Virus record (IMG/VR): IMGVR_UViG_3300030101_001363
Location: 1 to 38,856 of that record
DNA length: 38,856 nt
Strand: one strand, 5' to 3'
From: a virus
The position numbers and the translations under genes were made by a program. The notes beneath the pieces were generated by a model. The model was not told the origin of the DNA. It did no database searches and saw nothing but the letters and a program-made list of their open reading frames with translations. Shown piece after piece: positions 2,393-34,500 of the stretch (its first letter is position 1; the number at the start of each line of letters is the position of its first letter).

Positions 2393-2408
2393 AATCGTGT
2401 TGATACAT

Positions 2409-2417
2409 TGTGGACAA
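2409..2417 (-). promoter_or_regulatory. DnaA-box-like site
   Basis: On the - strand this reads TTGTCCACA, one mismatch from the DnaA box TTATCCACA. It overlaps a lone half-site of the 18-bp family. Two proteins resembling DnaA domain IV are encoded in this window, which makes the site more credible than the sequence alone would. Confidence 0.4.
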
Positions 2418-2460
2418 GTGTATTGCCCCTATACGCGCGCGCATGGGTATACTATACCAC

Positions 2461-2633
2461 GGGAAAAGCCTTGCCTATTGAAAAAAAACTTTAGCGCATA
2501 ACTTATTGAATATCAATACCTTACACAGGGTAAATAAAAAAACTTTAAAAAAAAGTTTAATAAATGCATAATAAATAAGAATAATTACTAGTTTTACAAC
2601 CGACAACAATTATTAAACAATTAAATTTTTATC
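2461..2633. other. AT-rich tract, candidate DNA-unwinding element and leader
   Basis: This stretch is strongly AT-rich with several A/T runs and an AAACTTT...AAAGTTT inverted repeat near 2539-2561. It sits between the repeat field and the next start codon. It could be the melting region of an origin, the promoter and leader of the following gene, or both. I could not find a clear TTTG...TAnnTTTG promoter in it. Confidence 0.45.
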
Positions 2634-2993
2634 ATGTCTAAAAAAACAGTATTAACTCAAAAGGAAATGCGTGAAAACATCAAAGCGCAATTTGGAACAT
2701 TTAACGCTAACCGCGCCGACCTTAAACAAACGTGGTTAAAAGAGACGAAAAGCCTTAGCGGTTTAATTCGGTTCTGTAAGAAAGGCAAAGGCGCGTCATA
2801 CGTCATTAATGAGTGTGCACGCGTTAGCGCTCTTCATGGTGTGAAGGTGTCGCCTTCTGAATTGACTATCAAGAACTTAGTTACCCACTTAAAGGATGGC
2901 GAACGTTACCACAAAGATGGCACAGAGCGTAAGTACTTCAGTACTAACATCATAGCCTTGACTATTGGTAGAATAGCGCGCGCTAAAAAGTAG
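2634..2993 (+). CDS. small basic protein beside the repeat field
   Basis: A 119-aa lysine- and arginine-rich protein starting MSKKTVLTQKEMRENIKAQF. It appears all-helical with a basic middle (IRFCKKGKGASYVINEC) and a basic tail (IGRIARAKK), compatible with nucleic-acid binding. There is no signal peptide or membrane segment. It is the only gene between the repeat field and the structured-RNA region. Its stop codon UAG lies inside a strong GC-rich hairpin (2976-3000). A repeat-binding initiator or regulator is an attractive guess from position and charge, but I recognise no family. Confidence 0.75.
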   Translation: MSKKTVLTQKEMRENIKAQFGTFNANRADLKQTWLKETKSLSGLIRFCKKGKGASYVINECARVSALHGVKVSPSELTIKNLVTHLKDGERYHKDGTERKYFSTNIIALTIGRIARAKK

Positions 2994-3000
2994 CGCACGC
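2976..3000 (+). other. GC-rich hairpin across the stop codon
   Basis: GCGCGCGCTA pairs with TAGCGCACGC around an AAAAG loop, giving a stem of nine pairs with one C/A mismatch. The UAG stop (2991-2993) is in the 3' arm. No T run follows, so it is not a standard terminator; it ends 2-3 nt before the first tRNA-like element and could protect an mRNA 3' end made by cleavage there. Confidence 0.6.
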
Positions 3001-3002
3001 CA

Positions 3003-3047
3003 AACCACGTTTGGAATTTACTAGGGTTCGAGTCCCTAGCGTGGTTC
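3003..3047 (+). ncRNA. tRNA-like minihelix 1 (acceptor plus T arm only)
   Basis: The 5' strand AACCACGT (3003-3010) pairs with GCGTGGTT (3039-3046). An 11-nt linker (TTGGAATTTAC) replaces the D and anticodon arms. A perfect T arm follows: stem TAGGG/CCCTA with loop TTCGAGT (3027-3033), stacked directly on the acceptor as in a tRNA. C3047 would be the unpaired discriminator; no CCA is encoded. An acceptor/T-arm minihelix is the minimal recognition unit of RNase P and RNase Z in known systems, so a processing signal is the simplest role. It cannot decode. Confidence 0.75.
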
Positions 3048-3056
3048 TAAATTTTG

Positions 3057-3510
3057 AAACCGCCAAAATCTGGATTTTGAAATTTTGTTCTTTACATCTT
3101 GGAAATTGACCGCTCGGGTTATAAGTAGACTAACCGCTTTAAGGCAATGTTTATTGAGGGGAATAACGTACTAATTACGCCTCCAATTTTGCCCATCGGG
3201 ACGCCAAACGAGCTACAACTTGAAAGACTAAACGCTACCAATTAGCGCCTTTCGAAGGAAGTTACAACGGCACCTATAACAAGGTCAAACGCCCCTCAAA
3301 TAGGCGTGGTATATTGAGTCAATACATTGTATTGGAGAACGTATGGCCATCATTGGAAATATGTAAAACCCTGTGTAGCGGGAGGCGTCTATCATTTAGA
3401 CAAGGGGAAATAATACGCGGAACGCGCTTGATAACTACCCTACATTCAGAACACTGAACAAATAGTTACACCAATGGCAATTATGCCATAGTCAATACCT
3501 TTTACGGATA
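3057..3510 (+). ncRNA. candidate large structured noncoding RNA
   Basis: No gene is visible in this stretch. It contains a run of short perfect hairpins: 3117-3135 (GGTTA/TAACC), 3167-3179 (CGTA/TACG), 3192-3200 (CCC/GGG), 3233-3247 (CGCTA/TAGCG), 3248-3258 (CCTT/AAGG), 3320-3334 (CAATAC/GTATTG), 3387-3401 (GTCTA/TAGAC), 3416-3426 (CGCG/CGCG), 3445-3458 (TTCAG/CTGAA) and 3474-3489 (ATGGCA/TGCCAT). Two 8-bp long-range complements also exist (3154-3161 with 3292-3299; 3177-3184 with 3381-3388). Position next to tRNA-like elements in a phage recalls the GOLLD and ROOL large RNA classes, but I cannot match either. Strand is assumed from the flanking genes. Confidence 0.55.
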
Positions 3511-3570
3511 ACTATGTTTGGAACGCGCACATACCAGCGCGCGCAGGGGTTCGATTCCCCTGCATAGTTC
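3510..3570 (+). ncRNA. tRNA-like minihelix 2 (D-armless tRNA-like element)
   Basis: AACTATGT (3510-3517) pairs with GCATAGTT (3562-3569). After TTGGAA comes a middle hairpin CGCGC/GCGCG (3524-3528/3537-3541) with an 8-nt loop ACATACCA, then a T arm AGGGG/CCCCT with loop TTCGATT. It looks like a tRNA without a D arm, but the loop has the wrong size and no U33, so decoding is unlikely. The acceptor differs from minihelix 1 at two pairs, C-G becoming T-A in both cases, and both elements share TTGGAA after the acceptor. The matched architecture and compensatory changes argue for selected RNA structure. Confidence 0.75.
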
Positions 3571-3610
3571 AGCGCAATCCTGCGCATATAACCGCATAAA
3601 TTTTAATCCT

Positions 3611-3778
3611 ATGCAATTATCTATAAAGCACATAGTGCAATTCTTCGAAGCTCAAGATATTGAGCGTCAACAATTCATCCAAGATGAAATTGAAATCGCA
3701 ATCCTGCAACAGCAGGCATTACTTAACCACGAAATCCAATCCGATGAAACAGATAGCACGTTTCTTCAATTCGCTTAA
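3611..3778 (+). CDS. small hypothetical protein (55 aa)
   Basis: The frame is open from 3518, but that part is the tRNA-like element; the ATG at 3611 gives a natural 55-aa protein starting MQLSIKHIVQFFEAQDIERQ. It is acidic, glutamine-rich and predicted helical throughout. It overlaps the next gene by 35 nt in a different frame. No family recognised. Confidence 0.55.
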   Translation: MQLSIKHIVQFFEAQDIERQQFIQDEIEIAILQQQALLNHEIQSDETDSTFLQFA

Positions 3779-3941
3779 TTACGTCTGTATTGTTGCCGCC
3801 TGTCTTATGGTGTTAGGCAATATTGACTTTTGCGAAAACTCAGAGCAGTTGTTTGATCTTACATTCAACGCGCTCTTAATTCTAATGGCAGGACAGTACT
3901 TCCGTATTGTCAATTACTTAATCTTAAAAGGTGAGCAATGA
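3744..3941 (+). CDS. small two-helix membrane protein (65 aa)
   Basis: Started at ATG 3744 the product is 65 aa. Two hydrophobic segments are visible: residues ~12-27 (NYVCIVAACLMVLGNI) and ~39-61 (FNALLILMAGQYFRIVNYLI), separated by an acidic turn. The frame extends upstream to 3660, but that N-terminus is hydrophilic and would overlap the previous gene by almost 120 nt. An inner-membrane protein is likely; holins can look like this, but the gene lies far from the peptidase and amidase genes, so I do not call it a holin. Its end overlaps the next start by 4 nt. Confidence 0.65.
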   Translation: MKQIARFFNSLNYVCIVAACLMVLGNIDFCENSEQLFDLTFNALLILMAGQYFRIVNYLILKGEQ

Positions 3942-4231
3942 GAAAAATCACAGAACAATCGGTAAACGCATTCTTGAATAGAACCGAATTCAAGAAAGGT
4001 AATATGCAGGTAGAAAACTCAGATGATGGATGGACGTATCTGCGACTGTTTAATAATTGTATTGCTATTCTAAACGCTAAGGGTAATCTAAGTATAACAG
4101 ATGATGGATGGCAAACGAATACCACAAAGGAACGACTCAATGGACTGCCAGGCGTAAGCATTGTGCAGAAAAATTGGAAGTGGTTTCTCAATGGAAAGGA
4201 ATGGAATGGATGCTTAACTCAGATATCATGA
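3938..4231 (+). CDS. conserved phage hypothetical protein (97 aa)
   Basis: The protein begins MRKITEQSVNAFLNRTEFKK and contains NTTKERLNGLPGV and a C-terminal WFLNGKEWNG. This pattern (KERLN-LPGV, LNG-WDG) is familiar to me from small uncharacterised proteins of many tailed phages, so it is a real and widespread gene of unknown function. It looks like a compact beta-rich domain without membrane segments. The start overlaps the upstream stop (ATGA) and the end overlaps the next gene the same way. Confidence 0.8.
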   Translation: MRKITEQSVNAFLNRTEFKKGNMQVENSDDGWTYLRLFNNCIAILNAKGNLSITDDGWQTNTTKERLNGLPGVSIVQKNWKWFLNGKEWNGCLTQIS

Positions 4232-4728
4232 AGAATACAATCAAATACAAAATCATTCAACAAGCGGTATCGCACGGCAAACTATTCTCACGGCAGCAGT
4301 TCCATAATTTCGTATGGATTGCGAGAGAAGAACCTAACCGCAGTGGTAACACATACGGTAATGCCTTGCAGGAATATATCCGCGAGGGCTTAATAGAAAA
4401 GGTGGCGAGGAGTAAGTATATGGCTGGCGACTTAGCGCAGACATATCTCGACGACCCGAAGACTCACAGGGCGATCATAAGAGAGCGCAGGCAGGAGAAG
4501 AAAACAGACAACCTAGCTCAGTCCTTAGTGGGTGCTATGATTCAACGGGTTGTTTGGCTCAATCCACATGATACACCATACGATTGGAGTGGACGACCTG
4601 TGGTGCTCGTATTGAGTAACGGAATGTGCATTATGCCCCAGCGAGACGATGAGGGTAACGATGCAGGCGCACTGAGAGTGTGCGATTGGAATACGATTGA
4701 TGAAATCGGAATTATTGGTAAGAACTAG
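4228..4728 (+). CDS. hypothetical protein with winged-helix-like N-terminus
   Basis: ATG 4228 overlaps the preceding stop (ATGA), giving 166 aa; the longer frame from 4108 would duplicate most of the previous gene. Residues ~4-75 resemble a winged helix: helices KYKIIQQAVSHGKLF and RQQFHNFVWIAREE, then LQEYIREGLIEKVARSKYMA as recognition helix and wing. Residues ~95-160 form a separate domain (VVWLNPHDTPYDWSGRPVVL, then LSNGMCIMPQRDDEGNDAGA) seen in other phage proteins of unknown function. A DNA-binding or regulatory role is possible for the N-terminal part, by pattern only. Confidence 0.7.
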   Translation: MKNTIKYKIIQQAVSHGKLFSRQQFHNFVWIAREEPNRSGNTYGNALQEYIREGLIEKVARSKYMAGDLAQTYLDDPKTHRAIIRERRQEKKTDNLAQSLVGAMIQRVVWLNPHDTPYDWSGRPVVLVLSNGMCIMPQRDDEGNDAGALRVCDWNTIDEIGIIGKN

Positions 4729-17047: not shown

Positions 17048-17744
17048 ACCTAGACTAAGTGGCCAACGATTGGCTGCATATAATCACTTAACTAGCAACG
17101 AGAAACGTTTGTTGGTTGTGGGAGATATTCACGAGCCGTTCTGTCAGCCAGGTTACTTACAGTTCTGTGTAGAAACTTATCAAAAATACAATTGCAATGC
17201 CGTACATTTTTGTGGGGACATCATCGATAATCACTATGCCTCATACCATGAGACAAGCCCTGAGGGGTTTGGTGGAGATGATGAGTTGCAGTTCGCTATA
17301 GATAGAATATATGATTGGGCTACTGCTTTCAAGAAGGCCACGGTTTGTATAGGCAATCATGATCGGATCATTATGCGCAAGGCCTTCTCGTCTAGTATAC
17401 CTAAGGCTTGGATAAAATCTTACAACGAAGTACTACAAACTGATTGGGACTGGCGTCCTCGCTTCGTCATTGATGGCGTGCAATACGTGCATGGGGAGGG
17501 AGGAACAGCCCGAACCAGGGCTAAGAATGATATGATGTCCACTGTTCAGGGGCACATACACACGCAAGCCTACGTAGAGCACCTATGTGGACAGGATAAA
17601 AAAATATTCGCCATGCAGGTAGGCTGCGGTATAGATAGGGACAGTTATTCGCAGGCCTATGCTCGCAACTATAAGAAGCAGGCACTAGCCTGTGGCGTTG
17701 TCATTGGAGGCCACACTGCGATCAATGTTATCATGGAGCCTTGA
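17028..17744 (+). CDS. calcineurin-like metallophosphoesterase
   Basis: A 238-aa protein with the full metallophosphoesterase motif set: GDIH (D33, H35), GDIID (D64), GNHD (N110, H111), a histidine in YVHGEGG (H155) and GHIH (H176, H178). These bind two metal ions. Phage enzymes of this family act as nucleases or phosphatases; after a replication module, DNA processing is likely, but the substrate cannot be read from sequence. It is the last + strand gene, and its final 14 bp overlap the end of the 3017-aa gene on the other strand. Confidence 0.9.
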   Translation: MTSKESRPRLSGQRLAAYNHLTSNEKRLLVVGDIHEPFCQPGYLQFCVETYQKYNCNAVHFCGDIIDNHYASYHETSPEGFGGDDELQFAIDRIYDWATAFKKATVCIGNHDRIIMRKAFSSSIPKAWIKSYNEVLQTDWDWRPRFVIDGVQYVHGEGGTARTRAKNDMMSTVQGHIHTQAYVEHLCGQDKKIFAMQVGCGIDRDSYSQAYARNYKKQALACGVVIGGHTAINVIMEP

Positions 17745-20700
17745 GTGAGGCGTCATACATATTTACATAGTCAGTCTTAGGGTATGGTATGTCTTGCCAA
17801 GCCTCAGGGAATATCTCTCCATTTCTATATGTAAAGTTTGAATGACCATCGTGAGTCTCTCCGTCTCCATATAGGAATACATAATCATCTTCGCTACCTG
17901 GTAAATCATCCTCAGTGATTGCTCTGCTTAACATCATGCCATACGGTGTTAGCTTAGACATTTCAGATAGTGGAATCATATCATCATCGTTAGCATTCTT
18001 TAGCGCTTCTGGCATCCCTAGATATGAAACGTGCCCGTCCAATATCCAAGACTCTATTTGAGCTCTATCTTCACCATCAAACTGTCTAGAGAATGACAGG
18101 TCAGGAGTGTTAGCCTCTTGAACTATTGGAGAGTCTTCGTATAGTTTCTTTATCTCGCGAACTGAATAGAACCTTTCGCCATCAACTATGCTGAAACGAC
18201 TTGGATCATTTATCAGGCTGTACTCATCAAACTTTAGCTCGTTGAGCTCTTCGTATGTGTAGTATACATCTGCCACCCCATAGTCTCCTCCGTATATGCT
18301 ATTCAAGGCAACAGTATTTTTAACACCGAAATGGGTGTATGAGAAGTCTCCTATTTGATTCATAAGAAAGTCATACCCTTCGCCTTTGCTACCAGTATTG
18401 TCAATCCTTTTTACTTCATTGGCCAAGCTGTACTGCTCAACACCTAATGCTTCGTTGGCATTTTTTACTGCTTCTGATTTTGCTTGTAGCATTCCGGGGA
18501 ACATCCTTAATACGCTAGCATCCTGAACATCTTCTACTCTAAGGCTTGTTGCATTAGGGAATTTAGATTTTAGTTCTTGGAATACTAACTCGTCTATCGC
18601 GCTCTGAATATAGTTGTTCACATTACCCATAACCTGACTCCACGTAATGCCAACTTGCTTATTGTTCTGATCCCTAGTTGGTTTGTCATCGTAACCATTG
18701 TACCTCTGAAGGGTGTATGTAATTTCGTTAGTATACTTATCTCTGTCTGTGACCATTCTAACGTTCTCATAGATAGGTCTGTTGAGGTCTACAGAATAGA
18801 TATACAAAGCCTCTGCTAATGCTTGATTCTCAAACGTCTTTCCATCAAAGAATCTATCTGAAATATTCTCTTTATTAATTAAAGACCAATCTCTTGCGCC
18901 AGGCATCAATGGTGCTCCAAGGAACATTCCCATAAATTCGCCACCTAAAGGCCAAAACATAGACTCTAGTTCCTTCTGCTGTGCAAGAAGTCTTTGTCTT
19001 CTTCTGTTTGTTTTAGGATTGTCAGTGGTCAATGGCAGGTCCTTTAGCTCCTGCTCTATCTTTAGCCATTTGAATAACGGCTTCCCGTAGGTTGAGAATA
19101 CTGGCCCTAATATAGATAATGTTGAGTTTATAACCTCTGAGCTAGATGCATTGTGGTCAACACCTCTCCCCATTTCTTGGAGTATACTATTGCCAAAAGC
19201 AATTTGATCCTCAATGGCAACATCCCCTTCAGTCATCCACTCTTGAGCTGTATTTATACCCGAGGACACAAACATATTTGTTGCAGCGTTCCCGTCATAC
19301 AATCCATACTGAGAGGCTAGGTGTTGTAGCGTACCTTTTTTCAATGCCTCGGACAATGTCATGTCTTCTTCACCATCGTCATATTCATCGTCAGCGAATA
19401 GTGAAAGTGAGTACTGCGCCAACATAGCTTTTAAAGTGAAGTATGTAATCTGTCTTGCTGTTGTTGCAGACCACAATTGAGTAGCCTGCTTTCTTGTCAT
19501 CTTACCTTCTTTGAAAAGAGCAACCCAAGCCTTCTTGAAGTTGTCTATATCATTAAGGTGGAAGGTGGCCATCGGGAATAATGCATCTGCTACAATTCCT
19601 CCTCGTTTATTCTTTATGTTCAATATCCTTACTCTCATATCAGCCAATGATCCGGTCTGAGTAATTATATTAGTTACTGCTTCGTCAGCCTTTCTTCTCG
19701 CTTCTCTGATTGCGCTAGCGTATTTATTCATATAGGCGGCATCATTATTATGTATGGCCCCCCAATCTATCTTTTGTCCTGTAAAGTTTTCAAACTCAAT
19801 AGCCATATTACCAAACCAAATAGGCCCTGCAAAGGGTCTATCAGGCATAGTAATAAAGTTATCTATCAGTTGCCCTAAAGCCTTAGCCTCCATTAAGGGG
19901 CTTTGCTTGATGGCGTTTAGTATGACGTTTTCATAGTAGGCCCTAGCCTGCTCTCTTTCATTCACCACCTTGCCTGGCTCTACAGGTCCGCCTCTACCGC
20001 CCATCCCAGTTTGACTAGGTATCACTCTTTGTGCTACAGTACAGTCAACATTACTTAGTATTGTACTCATTGACATGTCGGAGTTCCAAACACTCATATA
20101 GGCCATTGACCCTTTTGCCATAACCTCAGGGAACATAGTAGCATATATCATGTTAGACGCTAAATCCGCTATCCTATTCTTACCACCAAGTATGTACCTA
20201 TAGGCGTTTGTTTTCAGAGTGCTATATAATCCTCCATCAAGACCCAATAAGTTCTGTGTCTTGTCGACTGACGATACGTTATTTAAAACTGCTTGAGTAA
20301 GGTTGGACATGTAACCTCCTATTGCCTGATATATCTCTACGTTTTTATCTTCAAGCTTTGTCCCTGCCTTCTCGAACGTTGTGGCTGTAAGCTCTGATGC
20401 AGGAGCTACATATGCATACTCAATCAAGGATTTAGCAGCCCTGTTAAATACATACTCAACATCAAAGTGTATAGGCCCTACTGTTGTAGTTCTCTCTAAG
20501 GTTGGCGGAGGGGTCTCCGTTGCTCTCTGCGACCTCACCTCTGTTGCGCTCAAAGCATTTGTATTCATCTTAAGTTCAGCAGCCTGGTCCATTACAATTG
20601 ATGCGTGGTGAACATACCCTTCATAGTTTACAACCTCCGCCCCTAATATTGTTCCATTTACATACTCATTATATACTCTCAACTTCTCATACATCGTCTG

Positions 20701-23700
20701 CATATCCTCAAACGCACTATACTCTTCTGGAGAAAGAGTGTTTTTTAGCGAAGCTAGGTATGCATCAACACTAGACATATCCAACTTAGCGAAGTCTTTC
20801 TTTATCTGCTTGAGTATTTTAATATCGTGCCTTGAGTATTCCTGAGACCTTATTCCTCTGCCTGTGCCCTCGAATGGCTCCACTATAGCGTCTATATATT
20901 TTTCTATACTAGCAACCTTGGGGTTGTCAGGATTAAGAAGGAACTCTAACTGAAGCAATGCCGCTTGAACTCTATACTTGGATTCCACTCTAGAATTGCT
21001 TTCAAAGTCTTTAGTTCCAAAAGCCTTATCCATTATACCAGATACTTCTTTAGCCATGTTAGAGTACTCAAGCAGGAACACTCCGGTTGATTCCATCCAA
21101 GGCTCAATCAACGCTTCTTTTACGTCTGTGTTATTGTAGTTCCCTAAGCCTAAGTCAATCATACTAGATGTGACTCCATTTAGCATAGCCTCTATGGCTT
21201 GGGTTTGGTCTGCTATTGTGCCCGACCTGCTCATTATAGAGTTGAATGTTGCCCTAACTTTGGCATTTGTTCTAGACCTAAATAATAATACGTCAACCTC
21301 AGGGAGGTTCTTAATCACGTTGCTAAGTTTCTCTGATTCTTGTCTAGACTTCAGGTCGATGTACTGCGTGAGGAATGGGTTGAAGCTCTCCAGCTCTAAC
21401 GCTTGATTCAAAGCCTCGTTTATTTTATTTAGCCTCGCATCCTTTAGCGCTTGAAGAGATGCCCTGTCTAGATTTATGTCCCTGTTGAACATAACAACAA
21501 GCCTCCTGTTTAAGGCGTTAGGGATTGAGTTGAGGAACTCCTCAGAGTTTAAACGCTGAGACTTGGCTATGATCTCATCTATAATTTGCTCCTTATTAAC
21601 AGCAGGGGTGACATCATCCTTTGGTGTTGTCTGAGTCTCCTCCTGTTGATCCTCAGGCATATCCTCCTGTTGATCCTCAGGCATGGCTTGTTGAACATCT
21701 TGACTAGCCTCTTCCTCAGGTTTTGGTTTTGGCTTTTGTCTCCTTGAATCTGTCAGCTTATCTGCCTCCTCTGCGATTTGTTGGTTTCTTCCACTGTCTC
21801 GCTGATTTTGCTTAACAATAAAATCGCCTTCTTGCCTGTCAAGTGCAGCTGATTCTTTATCTCCTGGATTATTTCTTGCTTCTTTTACGCTAGCTCTTTG
21901 TAGGTAAAGCAGGCCTTTGTTGGGGCTTCTTTCTATGGCTTCATCTAATAGCCTTATCGCTCCATCATAGTCCCCTCTCTCAGCTAGTATTTTCGCAGCA
22001 GGAATTATTGCTGTAGCGTTCCCTGGTAGACGAGACTCCTGTATAGACAACTCTATGTCTTCATCAGTGTCACTGTTGCTCCTTTTCCCTGATATATTAT
22101 AAGCCTCTGCATCTATATCATTTTGGAAAGCCTTGAGGTAAATGGCTAAGTTATTAGGATCGGCAAGCGCTTCCTTGGCAAATCTTTCCCTTCCTGCCTC
22201 TAGATTTGGGTAGGCTGATAGGTCTGCGCTCATAACGTCTTGGAATAAATCCTTAGTGGATTGCGTTTCGTTATCGAGTGATATCTCACCAGCATCAACT
22301 TGATCCTGTAATCTCTTGGAATCTTTCATGGTGGCCTGAACCTCAGGCGTAGTGTCAACATCTGTTGCAGGTAGCTTCGCTGCTAGTGACGTGGCCTCTA
22401 TTACTCCGCCCTTACTCATAACATCGGATAGCCTTATAAGAGTATTTGTTACGTCTTGGCTATTGTAAAGAGAGATTCTACTAGGTGTAGTATTCATTTC
22501 TCCACCTTCATTGACAGTAGTTTTAGATGGGCTAACCATATCCCTAATACCAGATATGAAGTCATACAACATACCTCTAGAAGAAAGATTAAGTTCCTTG
22601 TGGCCTACAGCTAGGTCAGCTAAAACACCTGCAAGAGCCTCGTTACTTACCTGACCCTTAGGATATAGCCTAGTGAGCGCCTCCAAATCAGCAGGGTCTA
22701 TGATGCCAGCGGCCGCAGGATCACTATTCAATGCCTCAACCACTGTGTTGAAGTCAACAAACTGACCCTCTGTTTCGAAGTCAGGATTGGTAAGCACCCA
22801 ATGCGCTACTTCCTCGAACAATTCTCTTGATGAAGGTGGCTGATCCTGTCTCAATACTATAACGCCATCTACTACCATAGCCTTGGTGTCCTTTGGATTT
22901 ACGCCATCCTTTACAGGGATGCTGTCGTATTGTTCGTTAGTTAGTTTTGTAATTGGTACGCCATTAGCCTCTATCTTAGTTACAGCGTCTTCAACTACAG
23001 CCGCGTCAAGGTCTGATTGTATTTGAGACTGAGTCTTACCCTCCGCTTCAATATCTAACCCCGGTATAATATCTAACTGGCCTTCCACCTTCACGCTATA
23101 CCCTCCATCTCTCACGCTTGAACCATCAAATGTAACCTCTCCTGTTTCAGTATCAGCATTTTCAAATTTTACTAGTTGCCCCAATTCATTGTATATACTG
23201 ACCTTAGCGCCTTTATATTGGTCAGTCACCTTTATAGTGACCATATTTGTCTCAGAGTCAGAAGATATGCTAGCGGCATTAGACTCAATAATACCCGACA
23301 CCTTGCCATCCTTCACGATAACGTTTACATTGCTGTTATATCCTAGCTCAACTTCTCTTTTAGTAGCGAAGACCTCCATTTCACCAGTCTTATCATTAAA
23401 CCTCATTGTGTGGTTCAATAGGTGAGCTGGAATCTCATCTGCCTTGAACGAGTAGATGTTAAGCCTATCCATCTCAACAGAATTATTAATCTTATCGTCT
23501 AACCTTTTCTGCCTTTCATTTATCTCGTTGACACTCTCCTGCCTTGTGGCATCATCCTTAATATTATTAGCAGCCTCTAAGTCTTGATTAATCTTTATCT
23601 GTTCAACAACAATCTCATGGCGTATGTTATCAGTGACTCCTGCCAATGAGGTAGAAGTGTTTTCAATATATTCCTTGGCTAGAACCATAGCCCTGTTAGC

Positions 23701-26700
23701 CTGCTCTTGAGTTATCTCTCCTCGCTGAACAGCCTTGTCTAATCTTGACTGCAACTTGACGGGGTCTTTGGTCAGTTGAACAAAGTATTCTTGTTGTGTT
23801 GTCGTGAAGTCGCTAATATTTATAGTGGCAGCTGCTCCTGCGCCTCCAAATGTTGCGGAAAGGATTGCTATATCTATGGACTCGTTTAGCCCGGGGATAC
23901 CATCTATTACACTACCACCTAGCAACAACTCTTTAGTAATATTCTTTTGGATTTGATCCAGAGTTTCCTGAGTAAACTCAAGTCCTGCACCTGCCATAAT
24001 AGTTTTTGTAATCTCTGCATTTACTTGAGCAACCGCCTTACTGTCTGCTTGAGCAACCGCCTTGACAAGGTCATCTGAATATCTGCCTAAAACTTTATTG
24101 AACAGAGGGCTAGCCTTGCCGAAGAACTCAACCCCAAATGCCTGCGCTGTTAGTGTTGTAAATACAGAGTTAGCAGCAGCAGCTAGTGAAGCTTCTCTAG
24201 GCGATATACCTGACTTTGATAGCATATCATACTGAGCATCGTAAGAGGTCAAGAATATCGTGCCCATCTTAGCAGAGTTCATTAATGTAGCTCTACCTGC
24301 TTGACTTAGTCCTGTTGAATACAGACCTGCCACAGCACCACTGTTCATAGTGCTCAATATCTGAGTTCCAATCTTCAGACCATTACTGTAAAATCCAGAG
24401 AGGCTTCTTTCATATGAAGAGGTCAGACCTAGTTCTTTTATTTCTTCGTCAGACATTGAAGCAAGGACCTCATTAGAAAGCCTAGGGTCTACCCTAGCGA
24501 AGGTCTCAGCATCTAAAGCTGGGCCTAATATATCACCCTCTTTGTTAGTCATGAATCTATATCCATTCCTTTCTTCACTTAGGCGTATCCCCGTCATCTG
24601 AGCAATAGTAGGCACGGTCATCTCGTCACCAAGTATTCCATCCGCAGCCTCATAGTATCTATCACCCACGTCGTCAGCACCTACAAGATATGCGGCCTCT
24701 GCGAATATTGAACTTACTGCTCCATACACTCCACGAGCTCCACTAAAAATACCGCTTCTAGTTGCCTCACCCGTTACAGCAAGGAATGCAGTAAAAGGAT
24801 TTTCAGCAGCCCATTGGTCTAATGCTATCTGATCCTCCGCTTTTATATATGCTAGCTCACCATAAACATCTTTGATGTCTGATGGAGCAAAAGTAGAGAA
24901 CCTCATGCCATAGTCATTGGCCATTCGCATATGATGCTGATACAGCTGAACTTGTCTTGGTGTGGCCTTATATGTTATGCCAGCTATTTCAACGTCCTGC
25001 AAATCACCTTCAGACATAACATCTCTGTTGTCATTCATAACAATAGATGCTATTGCTAATTGTTCGTGCAGTTTTTTCTGCCCGGACAGCCAATTATACT
25101 CAGCAGCCTGCTCTTCAAGAAGTGAGTTTATTAGAGTGCCTGCCTCCTTCTCGCTTAAAGCTCCATCTCCATCCTCATCAAACCCACCTAAATAAGCAGA
25201 CATTCCCTTGCCTTCGGCTAGGTTGACTGCTAGGGCATACGCTTCCTCGTCAGTATACTTCCTAACCCTGAACGCCCCATCGCCCACTGATTTCTTTATA
25301 GACTTGTTCTTTATGAATTGGCCTCTTATCTCACTTAGTATAGCTTCAGGAGTGTTAGGGGCTAGCTTGTCCCTTGAAGGGCTAAGGCTTTTTAATTCGC
25401 CAAAATCGTATACGAGGCCTGTTGATCCAGGTATGCCATATTGGTCGGGGTCTAGCGATGGTAAGATGTCTCCATTAAGTTGTCTTATTACATCTTTATA
25501 AGAGAGATTTGTTCTCTCCATTATTTCCTTAACCTTATTCAGGCCATCAACAGCAGCCTGTTCAATTTCATAGTTTCTTGACCAATCCTCCCCATACTTC
25601 TCTCTCATGGTTTTAGAGATGTATGCCTTCCTAGCTTGGTCATACTCAGCTTTATACTTCTCCTCAAACGTAGGCTCTTCAAATTCATAAGACATCTCAC
25701 CTATGGCTTGCTGAACATTAACGTCTACTAGCCCACTCGAAGGGTCGGGCTCCATAGTCTCGGCCTCAACGAACGTCCCCTCTGTGGCGACAGGTGGCTT
25801 AGGAATATCAATAGTAATAATGCCTGACGAAACTAGGGACTGAAACTCATCCGACGCTGCGTTGTAATCTTTTTGATGTTGAAACAATATCGGATCATCT
25901 CCGCTAAGGACTCTATCAGACAGCTTTGTTTCAAGACTAAATAGCTCCTGATATAACTCAACCTTCTCTTGAGGGCTAGCATTAGTGAAATTTGATACAA
26001 GGTCCTTTCTGTCGTTAAATCCTATGCCATATGTATTTCTGATTATGTCCTGCTCAAACTCATCAGCAGTCATATTATATATGTCATTGATATTCTTGGA
26101 CTTAATGTTAAACTCTAACCCATCGCTTATGGTTTCTCCAAGGTTATACGTCAAAAGGTCTGACATATTATTATTGGATATAGTCATTTCAGCGTAGTCA
26201 GTGAAAGGTATAAATCCTGCGTTATAGTCATACTGAGAGTTGACTGCTATTGTATACTGAGAGTTGACATTCTTTTGTATTGCTGGAAACACAGCCATAT
26301 TGTGAAGGAACTCTTCTTGAGGCAATCCTGTTTGTTGAGATAGCTCCTCGACCTGAGACATCACCCCACTTCCGAAGCCTGTCGTTGACTTGTCCTTGCC
26401 GTCTGTCTGTCTATAATCTAGGTTAAAGTTTTTGACATCTTCACCTCTAGCCTGCTCACTGTAGAATGAGTTTCTTGCATCTGTGTTGTTCTTTAGGAAC
26501 TCATGCATTACGGACAAATCGCCATATGCTTCTCCTAATCCCATTTCATTTAGATTCCATCCTATATGGGACACACTAGCCCCTTGGAATATGTCAGGAT
26601 TACTAGTCCCATAAATGGGTTTAAACGTCATAGTAGACGAGTAATCAGCGAATGCGCTAGTTGACATTCCATCACCCGGGGAAAGTGTTATCTCGGCATC

Positions 26701-26784
26701 TGTGTTCTGAGTATTATCCTGACCATTCCCGTTCGTGGTTGTTTCATCGCCAGGCCCTGTTAAATTCAAATCTTCAACTGCCAT
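17731..26784 (-). CDS. 3017-aa giant virion protein, probable ejection protein
   Basis: Last gene of the virion operon. The N-terminus is an Asn/Gln/Gly-rich disordered stretch; no signal peptide. Visible modules: a canonical EF-hand loop DEDGDGALSEKE (536-547), glycine/alanine-rich hydrophobic stretches (~660-710, ~800-870, ~970-990), a segment like a T9SS C-terminal sorting domain (~1183-1238, VSIYNELGQLV...GGYSVKV), a degenerate metalloprotease-like RELFEEVAHWVL (H1328; the first His of HExxH is Glu), a TPR-like pair (~1590-1635), a PEDQQE repeat (~1700), and a C-terminal helical region (~2350-2460) like those of large polyvalent phage proteins. Size, order and hydrophobic segments fit an internal protein ejected with DNA, like T7 gp16 in role. 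Confidence 0.75.
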   Translation of the reverse strand: MAVEDLNLTGPGDETTTNGNGQDNTQNTDAEITLSPGDGMSTSAFADYSSTMTFKPIYGTSNPDIFQGASVSHIGWNLNEMGLGEAYGDLSVMHEFLKNNTDARNSFYSEQARGEDVKNFNLDYRQTDGKDKSTTGFGSGVMSQVEELSQQTGLPQEEFLHNMAVFPAIQKNVNSQYTIAVNSQYDYNAGFIPFTDYAEMTISNNNMSDLLTYNLGETISDGLEFNIKSKNINDIYNMTADEFEQDIIRNTYGIGFNDRKDLVSNFTNASPQEKVELYQELFSLETKLSDRVLSGDDPILFQHQKDYNAASDEFQSLVSSGIITIDIPKPPVATEGTFVEAETMEPDPSSGLVDVNVQQAIGEMSYEFEEPTFEEKYKAEYDQARKAYISKTMREKYGEDWSRNYEIEQAAVDGLNKVKEIMERTNLSYKDVIRQLNGDILPSLDPDQYGIPGSTGLVYDFGELKSLSPSRDKLAPNTPEAILSEIRGQFIKNKSIKKSVGDGAFRVRKYTDEEAYALAVNLAEGKGMSAYLGGFDEDGDGALSEKEAGTLINSLLEEQAAEYNWLSGQKKLHEQLAIASIVMNDNRDVMSEGDLQDVEIAGITYKATPRQVQLYQHHMRMANDYGMRFSTFAPSDIKDVYGELAYIKAEDQIALDQWAAENPFTAFLAVTGEATRSGIFSGARGVYGAVSSIFAEAAYLVGADDVGDRYYEAADGILGDEMTVPTIAQMTGIRLSEERNGYRFMTNKEGDILGPALDAETFARVDPRLSNEVLASMSDEEIKELGLTSSYERSLSGFYSNGLKIGTQILSTMNSGAVAGLYSTGLSQAGRATLMNSAKMGTIFLTSYDAQYDMLSKSGISPREASLAAAANSVFTTLTAQAFGVEFFGKASPLFNKVLGRYSDDLVKAVAQADSKAVAQVNAEITKTIMAGAGLEFTQETLDQIQKNITKELLLGGSVIDGIPGLNESIDIAILSATFGGAGAAATINISDFTTTQQEYFVQLTKDPVKLQSRLDKAVQRGEITQEQANRAMVLAKEYIENTSTSLAGVTDNIRHEIVVEQIKINQDLEAANNIKDDATRQESVNEINERQKRLDDKINNSVEMDRLNIYSFKADEIPAHLLNHTMRFNDKTGEMEVFATKREVELGYNSNVNVIVKDGKVSGIIESNAASISSDSETNMVTIKVTDQYKGAKVSIYNELGQLVKFENADTETGEVTFDGSSVRDGGYSVKVEGQLDIIPGLDIEAEGKTQSQIQSDLDAAVVEDAVTKIEANGVPITKLTNEQYDSIPVKDGVNPKDTKAMVVDGVIVLRQDQPPSSRELFEEVAHWVLTNPDFETEGQFVDFNTVVEALNSDPAAAGIIDPADLEALTRLYPKGQVSNEALAGVLADLAVGHKELNLSSRGMLYDFISGIRDMVSPSKTTVNEGGEMNTTPSRISLYNSQDVTNTLIRLSDVMSKGGVIEATSLAAKLPATDVDTTPEVQATMKDSKRLQDQVDAGEISLDNETQSTKDLFQDVMSADLSAYPNLEAGRERFAKEALADPNNLAIYLKAFQNDIDAEAYNISGKRSNSDTDEDIELSIQESRLPGNATAIIPAAKILAERGDYDGAIRLLDEAIERSPNKGLLYLQRASVKEARNNPGDKESAALDRQEGDFIVKQNQRDSGRNQQIAEEADKLTDSRRQKPKPKPEEEASQDVQQAMPEDQQEDMPEDQQEETQTTPKDDVTPAVNKEQIIDEIIAKSQRLNSEEFLNSIPNALNRRLVVMFNRDINLDRASLQALKDARLNKINEALNQALELESFNPFLTQYIDLKSRQESEKLSNVIKNLPEVDVLLFRSRTNAKVRATFNSIMSRSGTIADQTQAIEAMLNGVTSSMIDLGLGNYNNTDVKEALIEPWMESTGVFLLEYSNMAKEVSGIMDKAFGTKDFESNSRVESKYRVQAALLQLEFLLNPDNPKVASIEKYIDAIVEPFEGTGRGIRSQEYSRHDIKILKQIKKDFAKLDMSSVDAYLASLKNTLSPEEYSAFEDMQTMYEKLRVYNEYVNGTILGAEVVNYEGYVHHASIVMDQAAELKMNTNALSATEVRSQRATETPPPTLERTTTVGPIHFDVEYVFNRAAKSLIEYAYVAPASELTATTFEKAGTKLEDKNVEIYQAIGGYMSNLTQAVLNNVSSVDKTQNLLGLDGGLYSTLKTNAYRYILGGKNRIADLASNMIYATMFPEVMAKGSMAYMSVWNSDMSMSTILSNVDCTVAQRVIPSQTGMGGRGGPVEPGKVVNEREQARAYYENVILNAIKQSPLMEAKALGQLIDNFITMPDRPFAGPIWFGNMAIEFENFTGQKIDWGAIHNNDAAYMNKYASAIREARRKADEAVTNIITQTGSLADMRVRILNIKNKRGGIVADALFPMATFHLNDIDNFKKAWVALFKEGKMTRKQATQLWSATTARQITYFTLKAMLAQYSLSLFADDEYDDGEEDMTLSEALKKGTLQHLASQYGLYDGNAATNMFVSSGINTAQEWMTEGDVAIEDQIAFGNSILQEMGRGVDHNASSSEVINSTLSILGPVFSTYGKPLFKWLKIEQELKDLPLTTDNPKTNRRRQRLLAQQKELESMFWPLGGEFMGMFLGAPLMPGARDWSLINKENISDRFFDGKTFENQALAEALYIYSVDLNRPIYENVRMVTDRDKYTNEITYTLQRYNGYDDKPTRDQNNKQVGITWSQVMGNVNNYIQSAIDELVFQELKSKFPNATSLRVEDVQDASVLRMFPGMLQAKSEAVKNANEALGVEQYSLANEVKRIDNTGSKGEGYDFLMNQIGDFSYTHFGVKNTVALNSIYGGDYGVADVYYTYEELNELKFDEYSLINDPSRFSIVDGERFYSVREIKKLYEDSPIVQEANTPDLSFSRQFDGEDRAQIESWILDGHVSYLGMPEALKNANDDDMIPLSEMSKLTPYGMMLSRAITEDDLPGSEDDYVFLYGDGETHDGHSNFTYRNGEIFPEAWQDIPYPKTDYVNMYDASLKAP
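21637..21684. repeat. 24-bp coding tandem repeat
   Basis: Two near-identical 24-bp units (CTGTTGATCCTCAGGCAT core) lie head to tail inside the 3017-aa gene. Each encodes MPEDQQE(D/E) in an acidic, probably disordered linker after the TPR-like segment. The unit length keeps frame, and copy number probably varies between relatives. Confidence 0.85.
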
Positions 26785-30656: not shown

Positions 30657-31534
30657 TATAATTCTGTTAGCATAGTTAGTAATTCTTCCTGTGGGAACAT
30701 GTCGCTCTTTCCCTTGTTGGTGTTAGAATGCGATAGAAGGCCCCTTACGTGCCCGTAGTAAGCCTCTCTATTCCATTCGAAGGCATCAGCACCTTTTTCT
30801 TTTATAAGGGCAGGAAGGCCCTCTCTGACATCTATGTTGTCTCTGTCTGCAATAAACAATATTAGCTTACGCAAAGACTCAATCTGAACGTCAGAGTATC
30901 TGTGCCAATTTTTATACCCCTTAAACTCTTTTGCTAGTTCAACGCAATGATCTGGATGCACAGTGTGTCCGGCATAAGTCTTCCCATTCTTTAGGTATCC
31001 AAAGTTACACACCTCTATGCCGACGCTATTCGTATGCATCTCTTGAAATCCGTTCCTTCCTAAATGCCAAGCATAGCCTCCATCAGGTATACACTTAACA
31101 ATCTCACCGTCATACTTGAACTCGTCGTTAAATATAGATGGCCCACCCAAGACAAACTCAGTTGCGATTCTGCCCCTGCTGTCTCTACCCCAATGGTCGA
31201 TAGTCCGATATGGGCTATGCCATCCTGCTGTGTGGTGTAAGAATAGCCAATCTTTTTTAGTAGGGCCCTTCAAGTACTCACCCTTTGGTAGTATGTGATG
31301 GTTAATAACAATTCCGTGTTGACTGTCTAGTGACTCTTGTATGTCTGTAGTTAGTCCAAACAACTCAGCCCAAGTTTTAGGCCCTACTATGCCATCTATC
31401 TCTAGAGTGCTCTCAGCTTGAAACCTCATCACAGCAGATTCAGTTACAGGACCAAAGATACCATCAGCCTCAATATCTAGTTCTCTCTGAATCTGTTTTA
31501 CTTCTTTTCCTGTATCTCCTTTTCTTATTAGCAT
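30656..31534 (-). CDS. N-acetylmuramoyl-L-alanine amidase with peptidoglycan-binding domain
   Basis: A 292-aa protein. Residues ~5-58 are a PG_binding_1 domain (KGDTGKEVKQIQRELDIEAD and AVMRFQAESTLEIDGIVGPK). Residues ~95-280 are an amidase_2/PGRP-type domain: LFLHHTAGWH with the first zinc histidine (H100/H101), HLGRNGF, NSVGIEVCNFG with E174, and LLSHSNTNKGKSDMFP with the second histidine (H269) and D278. It cleaves the bond between MurNAc and the peptide stem. It lies inside the virion operon between muzzle and structural genes, so it may be virion-associated; endolysin use together with the M23 peptidase is also possible. Confidence 0.9.
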   Translation of the reverse strand: MLIRKGDTGKEVKQIQRELDIEADGIFGPVTESAVMRFQAESTLEIDGIVGPKTWAELFGLTTDIQESLDSQHGIVINHHILPKGEYLKGPTKKDWLFLHHTAGWHSPYRTIDHWGRDSRGRIATEFVLGGPSIFNDEFKYDGEIVKCIPDGGYAWHLGRNGFQEMHTNSVGIEVCNFGYLKNGKTYAGHTVHPDHCVELAKEFKGYKNWHRYSDVQIESLRKLILFIADRDNIDVREGLPALIKEKGADAFEWNREAYYGHVRGLLSHSNTNKGKSDMFPQEELLTMLTEL

Positions 31535-34500
31535 TGGTAGAAAGTTGGTTGTGTTGCGTCGACCACAGGGGCCATAACTATATTCTTGTCTGAATATACG
31601 CCATTCTGCACTAATGCAAGTATATTTCCTGTAGTTGGTGATCCTGCACTAGTGTCTCTATACAGCCCATCTGTGGCTCCCGTAGTAGCATCCGCTGTAG
31701 TCCATATGTTCTTAGCCAATCTATTCCTATCATAAAACGCTCCTACTGGAAGTGTTGGGTTGTTGCCCGGGATAAGATACCTAGAGTCTGTGAAGTAATT
31801 ACTTCCTACCCCACTACAAGCTGTTGCAGGAACGCTAGCGTGGTAGTCTAGACTAAGAGTAAACACATCTCTCAAATCCCATATCAAGTATAGAATATGA
31901 TTAGACGGGTTGTTATATGTGAATGCCCCTACAGTCCCCGAGAAATGGGCTGCGGATGATGGGGTTAGTATACCCCCTGTAGTTCCGCCACCAGAGGCTG
32001 CTGCATTCATCATAGCCACTAAGTCTGCTTGACTAGAACTAGCGTTGTAATCAGTAGCTGATAATAAAAACATCAACCTATGTCCGTTTTGAGCCGAGTC
32101 AACAGAACTAGGTAGGAAGTTGAATTGATTTGTCGATGATGGTTTGAAGCTAGGTGGCTCTAGTAATGCCATAACAACAGACTCTCCATCATCAGGTATC
32201 GGGTCTATGCCTTTAGTCCCCTGAATAACGGAATAATGAGACACTATATTGTTACCTCCCGTCGCAAACGTTGTGTTGATTGAGTTGTAAGGTATGTCTG
32301 CTCCCGTGCCTATACCATGACCAAAGTCAGTAAATAAACCTGCTTGAGCAGCAGTAGTAAGAACAAACCTCCTAACCTCTACCTGGTCGTTGTCAGGACA
32401 AGGTACAGAAACCCTATATGTTATAAGACTATTTGATGGCACAGATATATTAAGGTCTGCCGTGGTTGGAGTCTTAGCATTCTTGGTAAATGTAAACGCT
32501 TTGTTAACTCTTATAGCAGAACCACTACCACCCTGTGTAGCTCCATTCCAAGTTAAGGTAGGAGTTAGATTACCGCCCGTAGTGTCTACTATATCGTATG
32601 AAGCTCCCTCAGTGATAATAGCATCCTGCAACACTATAGTCGTGGCATTGGTCACAGAAGATATTACAGATTCTTTACCATTGTTTTTGTTTCTTATTCT
32701 ATGATTTGCTAGTGTGGCACTAATTGTCGTGAAGTCCTTTTCTGTATCAACTAAAGTCTTGGCATTAACAGCACTCTTGATAGTGTAGTCTTCATTGGCC
32801 AAGAACTCGGAGTTAGACCCCACAGTGATGTTAAGCTCAGTATCTGAAACAACAGAGTTCACATTGTATGGTAGAATCTCACCAGCTCTAAATATTTGAT
32901 CTCCTGATGTTACTGTTGTACTGAATGATGCGTTACTATCTATAAGCCTTCCTTCAGCAGCAGATGTAGTCTGTCCCGTAGTTTTATTTGTTGATGCCAA
33001 CTTAACACTACCCTGAAACTTTCTCTCTGACACGGATTCTATAATAAAAGCCACACCAACTGACCCTGTTTCTTCTCCAAGGTTTACAGTTATGTTCTTG
33101 ACAGAATTTGGTTGCTCTGTGCCCTCTGTATATACGTAGTCGCAAGGGGCAATGATAGCATCTCTCGCCAACTCATCCTCGCTAGAGTGCAGTATGTACT
33201 CATCTATGTTTGCATCGTAACCCCCTAGCTTTTCAGTATACTGCCCCATCTTGGAGAAGTCATCTCTAAAGAAGTCCGTCATATACTTCTCAGATATAAC
33301 TAGCATCTTCTCATCGCTATATGAAGAGCCATTCAACTGTATAACAGAACCTCTCTTTGCGTCTGTAAAGAATCTAGCAGGTCCATATCGAGCATAGCTT
33401 TCAGGATTCTTGCTAATCCCATACTCCTCCATTCTTGCAATCTGAGTTCCTAATACTTCAGGTATAGATGCCACATCCCCTCCACCTACAGAGTCAGATA
33501 AAAGATTCTTGCCTGCCAATACATACGACACCTTGTCTTCCTGAAGAACCAACACGTCGGTCATCCTTCCGTCTATAACCTCTATAGTACCGTGCGTCTT
33601 CTCCAAATCCTTGAAGTTCCCCAAGCTAAGATTAAACTCATTGAGTCTGTTTAGGTTGGTGTCGGCATTGTGTATGCCACTATAGGTTATTGAGTCAAAC
33701 CTTCTTATGTTCTTGTAGTCTCGGTTAGATACAGCATTCGCCCTTTCACCTATTTGAAACTCTTTTGTGCTAGTCCGGTCTCTTACTCTAAAGCTCTCAG
33801 CACCATTGCCAAACGCATAACAATTAAACACAGTAAGGTCGCATATTGCTGATTGTGCGCCTGTTTGGTTTTGAGTATTTCCTGAGTGAAACTTGTCTCC
33901 ACTTCCGTCCGTAGTTATATCAAAACATTGGCTCGTTTCGTAATACAACTCATCGCTTATATCCTTTGGCTCCGTTTCAAAAATCATCAAAGATTCGGAT
34001 GTGAATATCTCAATAGAAAGTTTTGCAACAGATTGCTTTCCTTTCCCTTTATATCCCATTGCACCCGACCTTATAGCCAACCAATACACATCCTCAGATG
34101 GAGGGTTAGTTGACATAGTTGCAGGAACTTTATGAAATTGAAACAAGTTCTTGTCGGCACTATGCTCTATGTCAGAGGCTATGTCTTGTGTTGCGTAAAA
34201 AGAAACTCCCGACCCAAAACCCCTATAACTTAATACCTTTTCATCTGACGGATTTGAAAATGTAATTGGCTCTAAAGTGTTAGGGTCTGCTGTTGCAACC
34301 ACCGCTGGCGATGGAAAGTACTCTTGAGTTGTTGGAGAGTTTGAGGACGTATCAACTCCAAGGTCTAAAAAGCTAGCTATGTTTTCTCCTACCCAAAAAT
34401 CATAAAAATTATCATAATCTTCAGTAGCTGTAAACTCCCTGTCAAACCTATAAATTTTTGAGCCCTTGTTGCTGCTCTTTTGGTTTCTTCTGAAATCAAA

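Follow-up and report, generated by a model that had tools for sequence, protein, structure and literature searches.

Reduced tRNA-like elements at phage gene junctions as candidate punctuation marks of polycistronic transcripts

The window, an IMG/VR virus record of 38,856 bases, carries two tRNA-like elements, TLS1 and TLS2, both lying where the initial annotation had placed them, with a small open reading frame (ORF) on either outer side. Both elements were delimited by sequence, fold and covariance model, and the features of the region are as follows.

2634–2993, plus strand: upstream ORF of 119 aa, its stop codon ending 9 nt ahead of TLS1
3003–3046, plus strand: TLS1, made up of acceptor (3003–3009, AACCACG, with 3040–3046, CGTGGTT), micro D-arm TT-TGG-AA (3010–3016), linker (3017–3020, TTTA), T stem (3021–3026, CTAGGG, with 3034–3039, CCCTAG) and T loop (3027–3033, TTCGAGT), with a discriminator-like C at 3047
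3047–3509, plus strand: inter-element stretch of 463 nt, the predicted release product if both elements are cut
3510–3569, plus strand: TLS2, made up of acceptor (3510–3516, AACTATG, with 3563–3569, CATAGTT), micro D-arm (3517–3523, TTTGGAA), a 20-nt hairpin insert (CGCGC-N8-GCGCG at 3524–3541), T stem (3544–3549, CAGGGG, with 3557–3562, CCCCTG) and T loop (3550–3556, TTCGATT), with a C at 3570
3611–3778, plus strand: downstream ORF of 55 aa from its ATG, 41 nt after TLS2

Each element folds better than 200 of 200 dinucleotide shuffles (z of −2.9 for TLS1 and −3.7 for TLS2), and in a search of the window with the family covariance model TLS1, which is part of the training alignment, scores 60.9 bits (E = 4.6e-15) and TLS2, which is outside it, 38.1 bits (E = 1.7e-8), these E-values being rough. 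Acceptor pairs 4 and 6 differ between the two elements on both strands, C-G becoming T-A, just as the initial annotation had described. Its 8-bp acceptor gives way to a 7-bp acceptor and a 6-bp T stem (a 13-bp stack), which the comparative data favour, and the TTGGAA that it singled out is indeed present but belongs to TT-TGG-AA, a covarying 2-bp mini-stem that forms a micro D-arm. ARAGORN and an Rfam search at gathering thresholds returned only the tRNA-Arg at 121–195 in the window, neither TLS1 nor TLS2 being called as a full cloverleaf (RF00005). At permissive thresholds the nearest Rfam models in the window fell below cut-off (tRNA-Sec, 21.3 bits against 47), and mascRNA-menRNA (RF01684) reached 19.5 and 18.9 bits against a gathering cut-off of 42.5. 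No intrinsic terminator was found on the plus strand of window positions 2400–4300.

The 119-aa ORF has no PHROG match, and a search for relatives found none. Between the elements there is no ORF of at least 50 aa in the ORF list and the stretch does not fold better than its shuffles (z −1.0), so that a functional excised RNA is at most putative at this place; the stretch could represent an RNA set free by cleavage, a very small gene or a remnant. Two candidates within the region were discarded, namely a structured RNA between TLS1 and TLS2, to which folding lends no support, and a boxA-like word near 3087, which is not significant. The nearest relatives of the virus by primase, G438 (99%) and G439 (95%), both lack the 2500–4250 block, and the more distant relatives G448 and G441 have elements of their own after stop codons. 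At one such locus (L346, G448:C1:2000–7000) a repeated palindrome, GTGTAATGACATTACAC, occurs both next to the element and downstream of the ORF that comes next. Elsewhere in the window, the ordinary tRNA-Arg (TCT) gene is also found in G438 and G439, and two giant ORFs occupy the minus strand, one of 3017 aa (17731–26784) and one of 1805 aa (31528–36945) that matches a virion structural PHROG.

TLS1 and TLS2 exemplify a large RNA family that is specific to viruses and has no Rfam entry. The family element is 44 nt long and consists of a 7-bp acceptor, a 2-bp micro D-arm, a linker, and a 6-bp T arm with its T loop. Covariation, which the initial annotation had named as a check, is very strong: in an alignment of 39 distinct elements 99.2% of cells are paired and the covariation score is 0.90 (0.18 when shuffled), and in one of 45 distinct elements that includes the D-stem the values are 98.8% and 0.90 (0.19 when shuffled), with the D-stem itself paired in 100% of cells and showing 6 and 7 two-sided changes per pair. 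Searches of whole records with the first model recovered core variants of TTTGGAA (CTTGGAG, CATGGTG, TATGGTA, ATTGGAT, AATGGTT, GACGGTC and CTCGGAG); they keep the pairing, and thus the core is a stem of 2 bp capped by a TGG or CGG loop. The scanner demanded at least one D pair, whereas the first model did not and yet recovered several of these variants. The most conserved bases are those of the T loop and the GG-bearing D loop, and in the tRNA elbow two D-loop Gs meet the T loop. All 52 distinct elements have C at position 73, including ones not selected for C73, and none of the 52 encodes CCA; at position −1 the commonest base is U (30/52), which RNase P prefers. An A1-U72, A2-U71 end and a 13-bp stack are untypical of bacterial tRNA.

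The distribution of the family was assessed with a fixed 45-base pattern in which the two end pairs of the acceptor, the core TTTGGAA, C73 and the T loop were specified, while five of the seven acceptor pairs and all six T-stem pairs were free to vary. A scan of viral contigs, a partly redundant set composed mostly of fragments, matched 106 stretches; 99 of 107 viral sites form all five free acceptor pairs and at least five T-stem pairs, and two more form four of the five. The same pattern matched 36 stretches in GTDB genomes, of which two pair, both on contigs of metagenome-assembled genomes (MAGs). This difference argues that the structure is selected and that, in the collections searched, the family occurs nearly exclusively on viral contigs, and these pattern-scan counts are the fair ones to compare because the structure scanners required pairing. 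Other variants are under-counted since discovery started from one core sequence. Across the class Bacteroidia, 395 genomes yielded four weak matches, each coinciding with an ordinary tRNA-Leu. Among named phages, blastn with the window region and two consensus elements gave no full-length match, and no full element was found in crAss001, phi14:2, phi18:2 or the Flavobacterium, Polaribacter and Maribacter phages reached by homology; a 21.5-bit match in MW202828 was set aside as that spot is a tRNA by Rfam. No cultured phage with an element was thus found among the named phages searched, and a literature search of partial coverage returned no report of such elements in phages. Protein relatives and one MAG title suggest that the hosts are probably Bacteroidota.

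The position of the elements relative to genes was measured at 79 distinct junctions with enough flank, with ORFs called mechanically. The stop codon of an ORF of at least 50 aa ends −2 to +11 nt from the element in 73 of them, the ATG of a following ORF lies within 60 nt downstream in 76, and both hold in 71; random same-strand positions satisfy the joint rule in 37 of 3,950 cases (0.9%) and antisense positions in 0 of 79. Spacing to the upstream stop is tighter than to the downstream start. In the window the outer sides of the pair obey this rule, given the stop before TLS1 and the ATG after TLS2. About 20 of some 80 junctions lie at −2, where the last two bases of TAA are the first two bases of the acceptor, so that a canonical RNase P cut would strip two bases from the stop codon. 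For this class, either only the 3′ side would be cut, or A-tailing would restore the codon as in mitochondria, or RNase P would not be used. Among the family 3′ flanks listed, none has the long U tract of an intrinsic terminator.

Elements also recur in series. In G014 (69 kb) an element comes after each of about 12 consecutive small ORFs, with a spacing of ~300–480 nt, and after the element come a small hairpin and a leader with AAACCAAT before the next ATG. Other arrays comprise six elements in 2.7 kb (G023), five (G024) and four (G002), the last with three identical copies that share identical downstream sequence. ARAGORN did not find the elements in the array loci. In the G014 array itself (L281, 3144–7200) the hairpin that precedes the recurring leader is short and variable and is seen after most elements. 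The head of this array (2690–2735) resembles a tRNA: it has an acceptor and a T arm, encodes CCA and could form a hairpin like that of an anticodon arm. It perhaps represents a stage between a tRNA and the reduced form.

The largest group of elements sits mostly 8–9 nt past the major capsid gene (Phage_capsid, PF05065) and is itself followed by a small gene and a head-tail connector. Among 79 loci with relatives of this capsid gene, 65 carry the element; of the 14 that do not, four are truncated and ten encode capsids only ~36% identical. These ten have strong hairpins soon after the stop codon, followed in six by U runs typical of terminators, and Cellulophaga phage phi18:2 likewise has a terminator-like hairpin after its capsid gene. 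At one locus (L187) a second capsid-like gene is also followed by the element. The strongest indication that the element forms or protects an mRNA 3′ end is this occupancy of the capsid 3′ site, where more distant relatives have a strong hairpin, often a terminator. At seven loci (L174, L057, L072, L182, L186, L189 and L192), on contigs between 19 and 245 kb long, an ORF of ~283–314 aa comes immediately before the element. In L174 this ORF encodes an SPFH/band-7-like protein that is also present in crAss-like phages, whose checked records are without the element.

We consider it probable that TLS1 and TLS2 are members of a phage family of reduced tRNA-like structures that act as punctuation in polycistronic transcripts and serve as substrates of host RNase P, tRNase Z or both. 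These two enzymes recognize an acceptor plus T arm. Each element would fold like the half of a tRNA that comprises acceptor and T arm, placed right behind a stop codon and shortly before the next leader, and its micro D-arm would offer the GG that docks with the T loop in tRNA. Host RNase P could then cut on the 5′ side and/or host tRNase Z on the 3′ side, after the invariant C, which would separate the upstream mRNA, or leave it with a protective structured 3′ end, and would give the downstream mRNA a fresh 5′ end. Which enzyme would cut, whether both sides would be cut and how expression would be affected are inferred; the elements fit the pattern of known t-elements. The untypical acceptor end and 13-bp stack, the stop-codon overlaps at −2 and the negative outcome of the search for cultured phages weigh against this reading. 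The built-in cleavage signal proposed in the initial annotation thus survives as the best reading, but the excision of one special RNA from the transcript does not appear to be its main role: family members sit between protein genes, with a stop on one side and a start on the other, and therefore look like operon punctuation and mRNA end-forming devices. The further copies in other phages that it had named as support were found in numbers, by pattern scan and by covariance-model searches.

The tight spacing to the upstream stop is also what would be expected if the elements were retained 3′-end caps, with tRNase Z cutting the 3′ side only or exonucleases trimming to the fold, so that the element protects the upstream mRNA, a situation that we liken to the tRNA-like end of plant viral RNA. 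Replacement of the hairpin or terminator after the capsid gene favours this explanation, and the 2-nt overlap with stop codons speaks against a 5′ cut. However, arrays with an element between every operon gene would yield one-gene messages, implying a 5′-end function for the next gene, and the commonest base at −1 is the one preferred by RNase P; we therefore regard retained caps as rather unlikely. Start codons that come after the elements, together with the conservation of an elbow-making T loop and a GG-bearing D loop, could instead suggest a regulatory tRNA mimic, its elbow or acceptor bound by a tRNA-binding protein or the ribosome to control translation of the next gene. Such a role is distinctly improbable, because the adjacent genes are unrelated (capsid, SPFH protein and small unknown genes), a dozen copies occur in one phage and it is the stop, not the start, to which spacing is tighter.

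One-gene-one-element arrays also resemble integron cassettes, and the identical copies with identical downstream sequence in G002 would suit DNA-level sites, either for recombination of the attC type or as targets of integration, through which small gene cassettes would be shuffled. We give this very little credence, since the conserved letters are those of tRNA T and D loops, the pairs covary freely, which fits RNA, and many phages have a single element at a fixed place after the capsid gene. Decay of an ordinary tRNA gene is a likely evolutionary origin of the element, and TLS2 retains a hairpin at the place of the anticodon arm; that the elements are nothing more than such functionless remnants, a possibility raised in the initial annotation, is contradicted by covariation. 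Compensatory changes at nearly every pair, an invariant core, constant placement at gene junctions and one size across unrelated phages make it scarcely credible.

Punctuation by cleavage thus remains our preferred reading, and tRNA-based message punctuation is textbook mitochondrial biology. If the reading is true, a compact, repeated, phage-encoded form of it had an independent origin in viruses of bacteria, gene borders in many uncultivated phages could be predicted from sequence, RNase P and tRNase Z would have in the elements a minimal substrate of natural origin, and bacteria a new kind of mRNA 3′ end, one that takes the place of the terminators found at the capsid genes of related phages. 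More tentatively, and at somewhat less than an even chance, we suggest that phages of (probably) Bacteroidota evolved a mitochondria-style minimal tRNA mimic and placed it after gene after gene, turning operons into separate messages, some of whose stop codons are completed after the cut.

The tRNA punctuation of animal mitochondria was reportedly described by Ojala et al. in 1981. The phage elements resemble it in having a tRNA-shaped unit between genes, with the stop codon adjacent to or running into that unit; animal mitochondria, however, use working tRNAs, whereas the phage elements have no anticodon arm (or a hairpin only) and are missed by ARAGORN in array loci. Transcripts of animal mitochondria are punctuated by tRNAs, A-tailing completes unfinished stop codons, and some annotations contain a 2-bp overlap of stop codon and tRNA that the authors ascribe to missing transcript data (PMC4624183). 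Among phages, phi80 M3 RNA and C4 antisense RNA are listed as phage-derived RNase P substrates (PMC11143913); compared by description, they show host RNase P processing of phage RNAs but are single RNAs and not an intergenic family. The mascRNA/menRNA of MALAT1 and MEN-beta (RF01684) also has a reduced tRNA-like fold, with no common descent claimed. It is a substrate of RNase P and RNase Z.

The closest known counterparts are the t-elements of plant mitochondria and Haloferax, which define mRNA or rRNA ends and are not used in translation. Those of plant mitochondria (Forner et al. 2007) are, according to PMC11658184 and PMC8662596, structures of tRNA-like form adjacent to genes, at which RNase P/tRNase Z cut and transcript ends are set, and those of Haloferax volcanii are likewise tRNA-like, beside genes and cut by RNase P and tRNase Z (PMC4326828). 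The phage elements share with them a tRNA-like acceptor/T-arm structure, here upheld by covariation, and a location at gene borders, here far above the random expectation. Unlike t-elements, they reside in phage genomes, form one 44-nt family with a 2-bp micro D-arm, a 6-bp T stem and an invariant C73, and are used serially along operons, their cleavage being predicted from sequence.
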